Source: Lachnospiraceae bacterium
Lineage (GTDB): Bacteria > Bacillota > Clostridia > Lachnospirales > Lachnospiraceae
DNA: 64,000 nucleotides
Direction of reading: 5' to 3'
NCBI GenBank assembly: GCA_016283575.1
Contig: JAEEND010000005.1
Span: 1-64,000 of the forward strand
In this document: one piece after another, positions 883 to 5,459 of the stretch
How the letters are laid out: each line of letters begins with the position of its first letter
Numbering within the stretch: the stretch's first letter is position 1
Notes under the pieces: model-generated
What the model was told of the DNA's origin: nothing
Database searches by the model: none
What the model saw: the letters and a program-made list of their open reading frames with translations, nothing else
Program-made: the position numbers and the translations under genes

Positions 883-930
883 TTCATTATATTTAAGACT
901 AAAATGTGCGTGTCACAGATAGGAGTTAGG

Positions 931-1836
931 ATGGATACAAAAATTCTTTTAGAGAACGGAACAAACGAATTAGAAGTTTTGGAATTCATATTGGACGGAA
1001 ATTCATACGGTATTAATGTTGCTAAGATTCGCGAGATTATTCCTTATACTGAAGTTACCGCAGTTCCAAATGCACATCCGAGTATTGAAGGTATTTTCAT
1101 GCCCCGTGATTTCATGATCACGGCCATTGATTTAAAGAATTGTCTGCAGCGTGGTAAATCAGAGCCCGGTGGACTTTTCATAGTAACCAACTTCAACAAA
1201 CTTGATATCGCTTTCCATGTAGATCAGGTAGTAGGTATTCACAGAGTTTCCTGGAGCGATATTATTAAACCCGGTTCCACCATTTCAACAACAGAAGATG
1301 GTATCTCTACCGGTATTATCAAATTAAATGAAAAGCTTATCATCATTCTTGATTTCGAAAAGATCGTAAGTGATATCAATCCTGAAACAGGTCTTAAGAT
1401 TCAGGAAATCGATGCTCTTGGCGAAAGAAAGAGAAATTCAGTTCCCATTCTTATCGCTGAAGATTCAGTATTATTAAATAAGCTTATTGTTGATTCTCTT
1501 AAGAAGGCCGGCTATGACAATCTTATTCATACAGAGAATGGTCAGGAAGCTTATGATATCATCCAGGATTGCAAGGCTAAGGGTTCCTTAAAAGAACATG
1601 TTCAGTGTATCATCACAGATATTGAAATGCCTTTGATGGATGGCCACAGACTTACAAAGCTTGTTAAGTCCGATGATGCAACCAAGGATATCCCCGTAGT
1701 TATCTTCTCATCTCTTGTTAATGAAGAAATGAAGAGAAAGGGTGAATCCCTCGGAGCTGATGCTCAGCTTTCAAAGCCTGAGATCGGCAACCTTGTACGA
1801 ATCATCGATGAGCTGATGTTAAACAAGCAGGAATAA
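931..1836 (+). CDS. cheV: Chemotaxis coupling protein CheV (CheW domain plus receiver)
   Basis: CheV couples chemoreceptors to the CheA kinase and adds a phosphorylatable receiver used in adaptation; it acts at the cytoplasmic receptor array. Residues about 15-155 are a CheW-like domain (LEFILDGNSYGINVAKIREI). Residues about 175-300 are a CheY-like receiver with an acidic pair after ILIAED, the phospho-acceptor D230 in ITDIEMPLMDG and a late Lys in LSKPE. The start at 931 is chosen over an ATG at 904 because AGGAG (921-925) lies five bases upstream of it. No other classical chemotaxis gene is nearby, but the acidic protein at 2562 carries FliM-like motifs. Confidence 0.93.
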   Translation: MDTKILLENGTNELEVLEFILDGNSYGINVAKIREIIPYTEVTAVPNAHPSIEGIFMPRDFMITAIDLKNCLQRGKSEPGGLFIVTNFNKLDIAFHVDQVVGIHRVSWSDIIKPGSTISTTEDGISTGIIKLNEKLIIILDFEKIVSDINPETGLKIQEIDALGERKRNSVPILIAEDSVLLNKLIVDSLKKAGYDNLIHTENGQEAYDIIQDCKAKGSLKEHVQCIITDIEMPLMDGHRLTKLVKSDDATKDIPVVIFSSLVNEEMKRKGESLGADAQLSKPEIGNLVRIIDELMLNKQE

Positions 1837-1850
1837 GAAAGACTATTAAA

Positions 1851-1877
1851 AGGTCGGTTTTTACCGACCTTTTTTTA
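1851..1877 (+). terminator. Terminator after cheV
   Basis: An 8-bp stem AGGTCGGT/ACCGACCT with a four-T loop is followed by seven T residues, 14 bases after the cheV stop. Confidence 0.9.
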
Positions 1878-1920: not shown

Positions 1921-2505
1921 ATGCGAATAGATGAAGCTGAGATGATCTTAATAGGAATAGGGGATGCTTTTGAAGATAAAGAAGATGCCCTTTCCTGCTA
2001 TAATGCCCTTGCTGAAAAGCTTGATAAAAAGAATTACTTTATAATATCCATGTGCATGGATGATATTATTTTTAAAAGTAATCTTAAACAGGACAGGATC
2101 GTCGCTCCCTTAGGGGGGAAAAGAATGAAACAGTGCCCCGATGCCTGTGAGAATAAACTTTACGATATCACTGAAAAAGAATGTCCCATATGTCATAAGG
2201 AGCTTACATATAATAATATTCTCTGTGAAAACTACATCGAAGACGGATACATGCCCATGTGGGAAAAACAGAGACTTTGGCTTACCGGTACCATGAATAA
2301 AAAGCTTCTATTGATGGAACTGGGTGTTTCCATGAAATTCCCCCAGATAATCCGCTGGCCCTTTGAACGACTGGCTTTACTTAATAATAAGGCATTTCTT
2401 CTGAGAGTTAACGAAAAACTGTGGCAGCTGCCGGAAGAGATCGGCAAGGATAATAAGGGTGAAGCCGTAAAGGAAAGCCCTCTTAAATATATAGAATTAT
2501 TGTGA
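1921..2505 (+). CDS. Degenerate sirtuin-like (Sir2 family) zinc-binding protein
   Basis: This 194-residue protein resembles the sirtuin core read by eye. It has an opening beta-strand and glycine turn (ILIGIGDAF), a segment like the usual YF-x-TTN-x-D strand, two Cys pairs (QCPDAC and ECPICH) matching the sirtuin zinc ribbon, and a C-terminal ELGV...PQIIRWPFERL block typical of the family. It is shorter than the usual 240-290 residues. The GAGxS NAD-binding motif is altered, the Asn of the TTNxD-type motif reads Cys, and the catalytic His position appears to read Leu. An active deacetylase or ADP-ribosyltransferase therefore seems doubtful. It follows the cheV terminator and no partner macrodomain is present. 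Confidence 0.6.
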   Translation: MRIDEAEMILIGIGDAFEDKEDALSCYNALAEKLDKKNYFIISMCMDDIIFKSNLKQDRIVAPLGGKRMKQCPDACENKLYDITEKECPICHKELTYNNILCENYIEDGYMPMWEKQRLWLTGTMNKKLLLMELGVSMKFPQIIRWPFERLALLNNKAFLLRVNEKLWQLPEEIGKDNKGEAVKESPLKYIELL

Positions 2506-2561: not shown

Positions 2562-5459
2562 ATGGCTAACAATGAGGATTATTTAGACGCTCTCTTAAGA
2601 GAGGCTCAAGAGCATAACGACCCTAATTCCGCCATCAATAAGGTTAGAGAATTAAGTTCTGCCATTGATAATGAAGTAATGGGATCATTTGCTCCCGAGG
2701 AAAAAGAAGAATCTGAGGCTCCTGTCGACAATTCTGAACCGGCAGAGGCTGATTTGCTTGCAAATCTTACAGTAAGTGAAGATTCCGATTATTCCGGTGC
2801 TTCAGAAGCAGATATCGACGATCTGCTTAAGAGTATCACCGGTGAGGAAACCACTGAATCTGACGATACCAGCGCATTTTTAGATATAGAAAATTTAGTA
2901 GGTGACGTTTCTGAACCTGTAGCAGGAGAAGAAAGTGCCGAAGCTTCAAGTGATGAGGTAGCGGACATACTTTCGGCACTTGATAGTGCAGAAACACCTT
3001 CAGAAGAAAGTCGGGAAGCCTCAAACGATGAAATAGCAGATCTGCTTGCGGCTCTTGATACAGAAGAAGCACCTGCGGCAGAAGAAGCTCCTGTAATAGA
3101 AGAAGCTCCTGCAACAGAAGAAGCTCCTGCAACAGAAGAAGCTCCTGTTACAGACGAAGTGCCTGCAGAGGAAGCGATAGTGGAAGAAATGCCTGAACTT
3201 CCTCCGGAAGAACGTATAGATGCGTCGGATGCAGATGTAGCGGATTTGCTTGCTGCTCTTGAAGGTACCGACACATCCGAAACTTCCGATGGCGGTGAAC
3301 AATCGATTGAAGATATCCTTGCTGGAGTAGAAGCAAGTAACGAAGGCCCTGTGGCTGATTCTGATACTGAAACGCCTGAAGCAGCTGCTGAAATTATCGA
3401 AGAACCTGTTGAAGAAGCTGCACCTGAAATTGTTGAAGAAGCAGCACCTGAAATTATTGAAGAAGCAGTACCTGAAATTGTTGAAGAAGCAACCCCTGAA
3501 ATTGTTGAAGAAGCAACTCCTGAAGCAGTCGAAGAAGCAACTCCCGAAGCAGCTCCTGAAGAGCCTGTTTCTTTGGATATTCCCGAAGATGAAGTTACGG
3601 AAGAAGAAGCAGCTAACGAACTTGATGAAATCAGCAGAATGTTCCAAAGTGAATCACCTGAAGGCGCTTCCTCCGACGATCTTGATTTGGAAAAATTATT
3701 GAGTGAAGCAGAAGGAAAAGAAGGAACATCTGAAGAAGGTGAAGCTTCAGGTGATGTGCAGGCATCCGAAGAAAATGCGGAAGTACCTGAAGAGAGCATC
3801 GAAGCTCCCGTAGATGAAACTGTTTCCGAACCTGCAGAAGAAAGTGAAGCTATAATAGAAGCCGGCGAAGATAATACAGAAGATATGGTCGCACCCGCCG
3901 AAGAAAGCGAAGCTATGATAAATGAGTCAGACTCAGAATCTGATTCTGCTTCCGATGCCGATATAGAGGCATCCGTAGATTCTTTATTCTCTGCTCTGGA
4001 AGAAAGTGATAACGAGGCTCCGGCAGAGAGTGGCGAAGCCGTTGATGACAGCCTTTCTTTATCTTCCGATGAAATGGAAAGTTTACTTGAAAAGGCCAAT
4101 CAGGTTGAGCCTGAAGAAGAAGTAACGGAAGTGGATGTTTCCGAAATCGGCGGTATGGAAGGTGAACTTGGTTTATTCGATAAGAATGATGTTTCCCAGG
4201 GCACCGGAGACCAGGAACTTGATGAAATTTCAAATCTCTTACAGTCATTAGACAGCAATGAAGTGGAAGAATCCAACGAAGATGTTGATATGCTGGATCT
4301 TTTAAATGAAGCCGTCAATAAGTCTGTAGAGGAAGACAATCTCGAAGAAGAGCGCCGCAAGAAGGAACAGGCGGAAGCTGAATTCGAAGAAGAAAAGAAG
4401 AAGTTCGAAAAAGAAAAGAAGAAACGTAAAAAGAAGAAAAAAGAAGAAATAGATCCCGAAACCGGTGAACCTATTGTAAAGGAAAAGAAGGAAACCAAGC
4501 TTTCCAAATTCTTTGCGTTCTTAACAAAAGAAGAAGAGGAAGCCGAACCGGAAGCCCTTATAGAAGCATCCGATGCCACACCTGCGCAGGGTGAAGGCTT
4601 TGAAGATGTGCCCGGAGAAAACAAGGAAATCCTTCAGGAAATGGATAAAGAAGAAGAGGGCAAAGGTAAAAAGAAAAAGAAGAAAGATAAGAAGAAAAAA
4701 GGCAAAGGCAAAGCCGAAGAAGGCGATAAAGAAGGCGGCGACGACTCCGGAGAGGAAGGAGAAGGCGGCGATGATGGAGGCAAGAAAAAGAAAAAAGCCA
4801 AGGTTAAAAAGCCGAAGGCCGAGAAAAAGCCTCTTGAACTTGATATTGAAACCGGCAAGCCTTTATCAAAACGTAATGTTAAGCTTATCTTTATTTTAGC
4901 GGCTTCACTTCTTGTAGGTATTTATCTGCTGGTTGTTCTTTTGCCCAGCCTTATGGTTAATACTTCAGCTCGAAATGCTTATAAAGCAGGCGATTATGAG
5001 ACTGCCTACAGGATCTTCTATGGCGACAAGAAGCTGAGCAAGAACGATGAACTGATTTATAAAAAGTCTGTTTTGATTTTAAAACTTTCTCATAAATACC
5101 AGTCCTTCTCATCCTACCGTGGTATGGGCAGAGATGTGGAAGCATTGGATCAGCTCCTTCAGGCAGTAAGCGATTATGAAGCGCTTTTGATAAGTGCTGA
5201 AAGCTATGGCGTAGTATCTGAATTTAATGAAGAATTTACAAAGATCACGGATGCTCTGTCCATTTGCTACGGATTGTCATTGGAAGAAGCTAAAGAAATA
5301 AACAGTCTTCCCACGGATTTGGAATACAGCCTTAAGGTTGAATCCATCGTAAACGGCACGGACTATATTGACCCCACAAAACCTCTTCCGGGGCCTTTTG
5401 TGCCGAGCGCATCAACAGACGACCCTGTTTACGAGGATATGCTGTCGGAAGAAGAATAG
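2562..5459 (+). CDS. Large acidic membrane protein with repeated FliM-like short motifs
   Basis: I do not recognise a named family. Residues 1-590 are very rich in Glu, Asp, Ala and Ser and probably disordered. Through this stretch runs a short motif of acidic/Ser residues followed by I/V-x-D/A-L-L-x-A-L: at 4-16 (EDYLDALLREA), 80-92, 129-141, 154-166, 221-233, 247-257, 354-362, 372-383, 467-481, 500-512 (LSSDEMESLLEKA), 553-564 and 573-584. This resembles the N-terminal CheY-binding peptide of FliM/FliY (SQxEIDALL). Residues 595-760 alternate acidic and Lys-rich clusters, a likely positive cytoplasmic flank. One membrane span lies at about 774-796. The last 165 residues, outside the membrane, begin with a TPR-like helix pair (NAYKAGDYETAYRIFYG). 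The gene lies between cheV and hisH; its function is unknown. Confidence 0.8.
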   Translation: MANNEDYLDALLREAQEHNDPNSAINKVRELSSAIDNEVMGSFAPEEKEESEAPVDNSEPAEADLLANLTVSEDSDYSGASEADIDDLLKSITGEETTESDDTSAFLDIENLVGDVSEPVAGEESAEASSDEVADILSALDSAETPSEESREASNDEIADLLAALDTEEAPAAEEAPVIEEAPATEEAPATEEAPVTDEVPAEEAIVEEMPELPPEERIDASDADVADLLAALEGTDTSETSDGGEQSIEDILAGVEASNEGPVADSDTETPEAAAEIIEEPVEEAAPEIVEEAAPEIIEEAVPEIVEEATPEIVEEATPEAVEEATPEAAPEEPVSLDIPEDEVTEEEAANELDEISRMFQSESPEGASSDDLDLEKLLSEAEGKEGTSEEGEASGDVQASEENAEVPEESIEAPVDETVSEPAEESEAIIEAGEDNTEDMVAPAEESEAMINESDSESDSASDADIEASVDSLFSALEESDNEAPAESGEAVDDSLSLSSDEMESLLEKANQVEPEEEVTEVDVSEIGGMEGELGLFDKNDVSQGTGDQELDEISNLLQSLDSNEVEESNEDVDMLDLLNEAVNKSVEEDNLEEERRKKEQAEAEFEEEKKKFEKEKKKRKKKKKEEIDPETGEPIVKEKKETKLSKFFAFLTKEEEEAEPEALIEASDATPAQGEGFEDVPGENKEILQEMDKEEEGKGKKKKKKDKKKKGKGKAEEGDKEGGDDSGEEGEGGDDGGKKKKKAKVKKPKAEKKPLELDIETGKPLSKRNVKLIFILAASLLVGIYLLVVLLPSLMVNTSARNAYKAGDYETAYRIFYGDKKLSKNDELIYKKSVLILKLSHKYQSFSSYRGMGRDVEALDQLLQAVSDYEALLISAESYGVVSEFNEEFTKITDALSICYGLSLEEAKEINSLPTDLEYSLKVESIVNGTDYIDPTKPLPGPFVPSASTDDPVYEDMLSEEE
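3063..3152 (+). repeat. Five tandem 18-bp units inside the acidic protein gene
   Basis: Five copies of an 18-bp unit, GAAGAAGCTCCT plus six variable bases, encode EEAPxx repeats at residues 168-197. The third and fourth units are identical, which suggests recent slippage. Confidence 0.85.
3411..3554 (+). repeat. Six tandem 24-bp units inside the acidic protein gene
   Basis: Six in-frame 24-bp units encode EEAxPEIV-type octapeptides from residue 284 to 331. The last two units drift to EEATPEAV and EEATPEAA. Unit length differs from the upstream 18-bp array, so the two expanded independently. Confidence 0.85.

Follow-up and report, generated by a model that had tools for sequence, protein, structure and literature searches.

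A membrane-anchored protein with FliM-like peptides, encoded near cheV in Lachnospiraceae, as a candidate docking protein for phosphorylated CheY

We examined a stretch of 64,000 nucleotides from a Lachnospiraceae bacterium (assembly GCA_016283575.1, contig JAEEND010000005.1, positions 1 to 64,000 of the forward strand), referred to here as the window. The gene of interest, at 2562..5459, is an open reading frame (ORF) of 965 amino acids (aa) that lies one ORF away from the chemotaxis gene cheV and encodes an acidic, single-span membrane protein with peptides resembling the N-termini of the flagellar motor proteins FliM and FliY. An earlier note on this DNA had described about twelve such motifs and had proposed that they dock a CheY- or CheV-like receiver; both the ORF and the peptides that it quoted are present. 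All features described below are on the plus strand unless stated otherwise.

The membrane protein and its domains

From the N-terminus, the 965 residues form an acidic tail, then a stretch rich in lysine, a single membrane span and an outer domain of helices. Residues 1–595 contain 199 aspartates and glutamates versus 13 lysines and arginines, and we infer that this tail is cytoplasmic and disordered. The juxtamembrane stretch that follows (residues 596–765, 4347..4856) has 50 K/R and 51 D/E, in blocks. The single span that had been read from the sequence was recovered by both hydropathy and the structure model at residues ~775–797 (4884..4952), and because the basic stretch precedes it, the orientation is expected to be N-in, C-out, as in a type II membrane protein. 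The outer domain (4953..5456) is all-helical, with hairpins that look TPR-like, and the predicted structure model supporting it and the span has a mean pLDDT of 93.6. The span and the outer domain together served as the query part in homologue searches.

No Pfam or NCBIfam family matched the protein at E ≤ 1. At this threshold, neither the FliM domain (PF02154) nor the SpoA domain was matched in Pfam, nor were phosphatase domains of the CheZ, CheC, CheX or FliY type, and LysM and FimV family domains were found in neither Pfam nor NCBIfam. The window genome encodes FliM by a gene of its own, on contig C15, and ORFs that we take to be CheC-like and CheD-like are separate genes in the flagellar region L094. 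The outer-domain profile had its best match among PDB sequences at E 0.11 (FliS), and a search for related loci with the outer domain as the query gave no match.

FliM-like peptides in the acidic tail

A scoring matrix was built from 37 N-terminal 13-mers of FliM and FliY from 19 genomes (L094–L112, window genome included), with the 965-aa protein excluded; the FliM N-terminus of the window genome reads LSQNEIDSLLAAL, and that of FliY LSQDEINALLSGM. Using the standard background, the matrix found 3 sites of at least 8 bits in the 965-aa protein versus 1 in the 45 other ORFs of the window (17,572 aa), and among the ORFs of at least 100 aa in the flagellar region L094 it picked out only FliM and FliY. 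With the acidic composition of the tail as the background, 2 sites of at least 8 bits were obtained versus a shuffled mean of 0.012. The loose pattern [IVLMF]xx[LIMF][LFMI] occurs at 12 sites in residues 1–595, while 2000 shuffles gave 2.5 on average and 9 at most, and the stricter core [SN]xx[DEQ][IVLM]xx[LMI][LIMF] at 5 sites versus 0.1 in the shuffles.

Both the matrix and the exact-pattern scans detected an LSQxEIDALL-like peptide in the protein; LSQxEIDALL itself is absent from it. At the DNA level, the exact pattern of the motif is limited to two sites in the draft genome (2.2 Mb), namely the N-terminus of fliM and the gene at 2562..5459. Over six genomes it was found at 29 places, assigned by position to fliM (3), to the membrane-protein family (11) and elsewhere (15), and the reversed pattern was found at 8 places in the same genomes.

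The excess extends to the homologues. In 60 proteins (59 loci, taken one per genus, and the window), 50 FliM-type matches of at least 6 bits were counted versus 1.3 in shuffled sequences and 7 with the reversed matrix, with 14 of the 50 in the single protein of L038. In 76 proteins from loci fetched through CheV, the corresponding counts were 77, 2.1 and 6. Some matches in both sets are the N-terminal YLDxLL peptide itself. The protein of L063 was too short and was left out of the 60, and four CheV-fetched loci (L161, L166, L194 and L213), whose contigs end early, showed no outer domain, while L209 was retained though truncated. The two sets (L031–L090 and L149–L228) overlap in genomes, thus their counts are not independent. 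The FliM/FliY-likeness of the motifs is therefore borne out by the shuffle, reversed-matrix and other-ORF controls. Across the family, judged by sequence, FliM-type peptides are frequent, not universal.

Conservation of the motifs

Within the genus, 13 of the 18 genomes searched hold the protein, window included, as do all six of the high-quality ones. In the alignment of the window protein with its 12 same-genus homologues, four of the twelve sites stand out, with mean identities of 0.41–0.65 versus 0.25 for the whole tail and 0.14–0.28 for the other eight sites. These are the N-terminal peptide NNEDYLDALLREA (residues 3–15, 2568..2606), the FliM-like peptide LSSDEMESLLEKA (residues 500–512, 4059..4097; 10.3 bits with the standard background), QELDEISNLLQSL (residues 551–563, 4212..4250; 12.3 bits) and NEDVDMLDLLNEA (residues 572–584, 4275..4313). 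The conserved tail stretches of the genus comprise the last three of these sites, residues 532–544 (MEGELGLFDKNDV), and NNEDYLDxLL together with the adjoining DPNSAINKVRE. Site 500–512 fits [LMF]Sxx[DE][IM]xx[LM][LI] in all 13 genus sequences, and in six of them it carries SQ, as in FliM. Its counterparts include LSQDDIEKLLNNA, MSQEEIEALLNQA, MSESEITDLINGA and MSEDEIEKMLSAA, and the cores in the 12 homologues are LSQDDIEKLL, MSQEEIEALL, MSESEITDLI, MSGEDIEKML or similar.

The top matrix match, at 16.5 bits, is ASNDEIADLLAAL (residues 153–165, 3018..3056), which holds the SNDEIADLLAALD form at residue 153. Its position is not kept within the genus (identity 0.14), and it lies inside a 75-bp tandem duplication; ASSDEVADILSAL (residues 128–140, 2943..2981) is likewise a tandem copy without a kept position. 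Neither ASEADIDDLLKSI (residues 80–92, 2799..2837) nor ASDADVADLLAAL (residues 221–233, 3222..3260) is kept in position, and four loose motifs complete the set: GGEQSIEDILAGV (residues 244–256, 3291..3329), NELDEISRMFQSE (residues 352–364, 3615..3653), SDDLDLEKLLSEA (residues 371–383, 3672..3710) and DIEASVDSLFSAL (residues 467–479, 3960..3998). The middle array of the tail, part of which is the tandem duplication, is thus repetitive, fast-evolving and not conserved in position, and other lineages have separate arrays of their own, such as DPNKxLSADEIAALFAQA repeats. The count of about twelve in the earlier note stands for the loose pattern, but as a number of functional sites it does not, with 4 of the 12 clearly conserved; "twelve" overstates the stable motif set.

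The YLDxLL-type N-terminus is commoner than the FliM-type peptides. It was recognised by a narrow pattern in 45 of 61 proteins and by eye in seven more, several of the remainder being truncated at contig ends, and it is present in 66 of the 76 proteins of the CheV-fetched set. The gene of G112 is interrupted by a 100-N assembly gap, and the frame on its upstream side opens with MANDDPNKKLSPEEIAALFA, which by its sequence is a FliM-type peptide where others carry YLDxLL. Two homologues, L075 and L077 (from G054 and G127), open with a short zinc-ribbon-like CxxC...CxxC segment; no YLDxLL was seen in L075, which has a weak Zn_Ribbon_1 match, and in L077 the segment is followed by YLNTL.

Distribution among genomes

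We searched 200 genomes of the window's family with the outer-domain profile and found strong homologues (E < 1e-30) in 84. Gene profiles matched FliM in 110, CheA in 109 and CheV in 95 (E ≤ 1e-40) of the 200. All 84 homologue-bearing genomes have flagellar genes. A FliM match is present in 82 of them, clear in 81 and, in G042, weak and under the family cut-off; the three genomes without a clear FliM (G042, G147 and G174) all have flagellin. CheA was found in 82 of the 84 and CheV in 80, with partial CheV matches in two (G097 and G110); the four without a CheV match (G011, G100, G147 and G170) are all drafts. FliM was not matched in 90 genomes, of which only G147 and G174 have the protein. Homologues common in genomes lacking chemotaxis genes, which would have spoken against the role proposed in the earlier note, were thus not seen, and a non-motile role was set aside, as no strong homologue was found in any genome shown to lack flagella. 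In Eubacterium rectale, the immotile subspecies has fewer copies of CheV than the motile one (PMC7278147).

Genomes with an ordinary FliM hold the membrane protein in 81 of 89 cases, while none of the 19 with a divergent FliM class holds it, 13 of these having CheV. In the seven genomes of this class that were read (G013, G038, G057, G085, G104, G113 and G195; loci L113 and L243–L248), the divergent FliM keeps an LSQxQIDxLL-type peptide. Weak partial matches in G028, G073 and G183 (E 3e-5 to 1.3e-4), none of which has a FliM match, were taken as chance and excluded from the 84. An order-wide profile search of 246 genomes gave 26 strong matches, all within the window's family, and three weak partial matches (E 8e-6 to 9e-5) outside it were likewise taken as chance. 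Relatives among the CheV loci are mostly named Lachnospiraceae.

Genomic neighbourhood

In the window, cheV (904..1836, likely start 931) encodes a CheW domain and a receiver. Between it and the membrane-protein gene is a Cys-containing ORF of 194 aa (1921..2505), relatives of which are present here in many loci and absent in others; it presumably resembles SIR2-like deacetylases. Neither this ORF nor its counterpart at L031:1287-2126, of ~280 aa, has a Pfam match over the cut-off.

We fetched the neighbourhoods for 60 of the 82 genomes with an outer-domain match. In 53 of the 60 loci, cheV lies upstream on the same strand; of the seven others, L033, L038, L063, L081 and L083 reach contig ends, and L041 and L056 are real exceptions. 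For 46 loci we measured the gap between the two genes, which does not exceed ~120 bp in 17 of them; the values are approximate, since gene starts were placed by means of the N-terminal peptide. No clear start was seen in 7 of the 60 loci and in 10 of the 76 CheV-fetched ones. Of all CheV-fetched loci (the best 80 of 557), 76 have the gene downstream, and the other four contigs end early. The location next to cheV that had been noted in the window thus holds in position as well as in the co-occurrence of the two genes. In most loci the gene is followed by hisH, hisF and ung.

The 3' end of 23S rRNA lies directly upstream of cheV in 2 of the 10 relatives tested (L149:1-280 and L154:1-203), and many draft contigs, including that of the window, begin a few hundred bases before cheV. 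Because cheV and the membrane-protein gene sit together, and in these 2 of 10 near 23S rRNA, incomplete assembly can lose both at once, and the position of the 23S rRNA is probably why they go missing together from drafts.

CheY or CheV as the ligand

The LSQxEIDALL peptide of FliM, which is also found in FliY, is a binding site for phosphorylated CheY (CheY-P), as described in PMC6700473 and PMC9126983. At the position of the aromatic switch residue Tyr106 of CheY, the CheY of the window genome (L094:14236-14598, minus strand) has an aromatic residue, F. CheV has Gln there in 52 of 53 one-per-genus sequences (the other has a gap), in all 80 named loci and in all 14 from genomes without the membrane protein; that is, in all 146 sequences with a letter at this position, some genomes being counted in two sets. 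This suggests, as far as sequences can tell, that this CheV lineage signals differently from CheY. The CheV4 of Vibrio cholerae also lacks the aromatic residue, and its normal placement needs the membrane hub HubP (PMC8789113).

Since CheV has Gln at the aromatic switch position, we think it more probable that the FliM-type peptides bind CheY-P, and binding of the CheV receiver by these peptides, which the earlier note had also entertained, appears unlikely. CheV is possible as a ligand of the YLDxLL peptide.

Proposed role and alternative explanations

We give about even chances to the protein being a membrane-anchored, multivalent docking protein for CheY-P in the CheV branch of chemotaxis. 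The FliM-like peptides of the tail would bind the same face of CheY-P as do the N-termini of FliM and FliY at the motor, and several tethered sites near CheV-containing receptor arrays could hold or concentrate CheY-P at the membrane, so that the signal to the motor would be lowered, delayed or localised. The number of sites might be tuned per lineage by tandem duplication, a further partner may be bound by the conserved peptide at the N-terminus, and the outer domain may position the protein or sense something outside.

Several observations weigh against this docking role. Site 500–512 scores just 5.3 bits once the tail composition is used as the background, and 8 of the 12 motifs are without positional conservation. 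At least one FliM-type match (at least 6 bits) is present in only 23 of the 60 proteins of the one-per-genus set, although in 43 of the 76 CheV-fetched ones; the remaining one-per-genus proteins hold only YLDxLL, from which the Glu of FliM is missing, and weaker LL motifs. The adjacency is to cheV and not to cheY, and since the whole block with hisH, hisF and ung is conserved too, being next to cheV carries less weight by itself than it first seems. The window has a terminator-like hairpin of 11 pairs followed by a T run (1848..1873, a consensus match only) directly after cheV, which speaks against simple co-transcription of the two genes in this genome. Moreover, as 8 of the 89 ordinary-FliM genomes show no homologue, the protein may be dispensable for swimming; several of these eight are incomplete drafts, in seven of them CheV is missing as well, and in the eighth (G014) cheV lies where a contig ends.

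Part of this evidence would fit other roles. The YLDxLL peptide, with the conserved LL peptides that precede the lysine-rich part, could bind the CheV receiver and tether CheV arrays to the membrane or a cell pole, leaving the FliM-like sites secondary. We regard such a CheV anchor as possible yet rather unlikely. It would agree with the neighbourhood and co-occurrence, which are both with cheV, with the wider spread of YLDxLL than of FliM-type peptides, and with the HubP-dependent placement of V. cholerae CheV4 (PMC8789113). Genomes that have the protein and genomes that lack it also differ in their CheV receivers, chiefly at positions 99, 105 and 115 (Escherichia coli CheY numbering), a difference that phylogeny confounds. 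Yet 15 of the 95 CheV-bearing genomes lack the protein (G014 among them), and CheY explains the FliM-type peptides best.

A polar or flagellar-site landmark such as HubP/FimV, that is, a large acidic membrane hub whose many weak peptide sites place flagella, arrays or both and count receivers among their clients, seems to us improbable. Such hubs combine an extended acidic cytoplasmic region of repeats with a single span and a helical domain, a design that the window protein resembles, and the occurrence of the latter only in genomes with flagellar genes would agree; but there is no FimV or LysM family match, the topology is reversed relative to that of FimV, and the landmark role alone leaves the FliM-like peptides unexplained. 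Still more doubtful is that the motifs merely arise from acidic, leucine-containing low-complexity repeats and that the conserved function resides in the outer domain. In its favour, the tail has a repetitive, fast-evolving middle, and the outer domain is the part that found the homologues; however, the shuffle, reversed-matrix and other-ORF controls argue against it, as does the conservation in position of site 500–512 and the N-terminal peptide.

Returning to docking of CheY-P, the known systems offer partial parallels. FliM and FliY share the LSQxEIDALL-type sequence, and the window family also has an LDxLL-type N-terminus, but they carry one copy on a motor protein, in contrast to the several copies here on a protein that is anchored in the membrane and encoded away from the motor operon. 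The C-terminal CheY-binding peptide of CheZ has a consensus that resembles the SNDEIADLLAALD form; CheZ is, however, a soluble phosphatase, with no such domain in the 965-aa protein. In having an acidic tail, a single span and a domain of helices, the window protein may parallel HubP/FimV, whose plan includes a TPR-like domain; its own helical domain is TPR-like in appearance and would lie outside, a topology opposite to that of HubP/FimV. The phylum also differs, and the FliM-like peptides set the window protein apart. In V. cholerae, such a membrane-anchored hub is tied, with CheV4 and MotV, to CheV placement and motility (PMC8789113). A further parallel outside FliM is CheF, an archaeal CheY-P adaptor whose unit, a homodimer, offers two CheY-P sites, but it has another fold and binding mode and is located at the archaellum motor (PMC9126983).

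More tentatively, the protein may act as a CheY-P capacitor at the membrane, with CheV as its genetic partner. Its FliM peptides, arranged in tandem and open to expansion in evolution, would set the gain with which the motor of motile Lachnospiraceae follows the receptor array, or the delay, possibly depending on what the outer helical domain senses; this would be an undescribed class of chemotaxis component, though we hold it to be less likely than not. The known CheY-P targets of this type, FliM and FliY, each present one peptide, on the motor. A multi-copy, lineage-variable, CheV-paired membrane protein, if confirmed, would bring a further layer into the chemotaxis of motile gut bacteria and give CheV a concrete role beyond the receptor array. 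The peptide itself is known, while its membrane-tethered array is new as far as the literature searched goes; no description of such a protein was found there, the coverage being partial and thus weak evidence of absence.

Other observations

An open frame of 436 codons on the minus strand (2789-4099) faces the acidic tail, and it is probably a codon-usage shadow of the tail rather than a gene. In G000, contig C24 carries ten Flagellin_N matches on one strand within one 15-kb stretch (C24:704-15269), with a further match ~5 kb on along C24 and another on C22, an unusually large tandem flagellin array.

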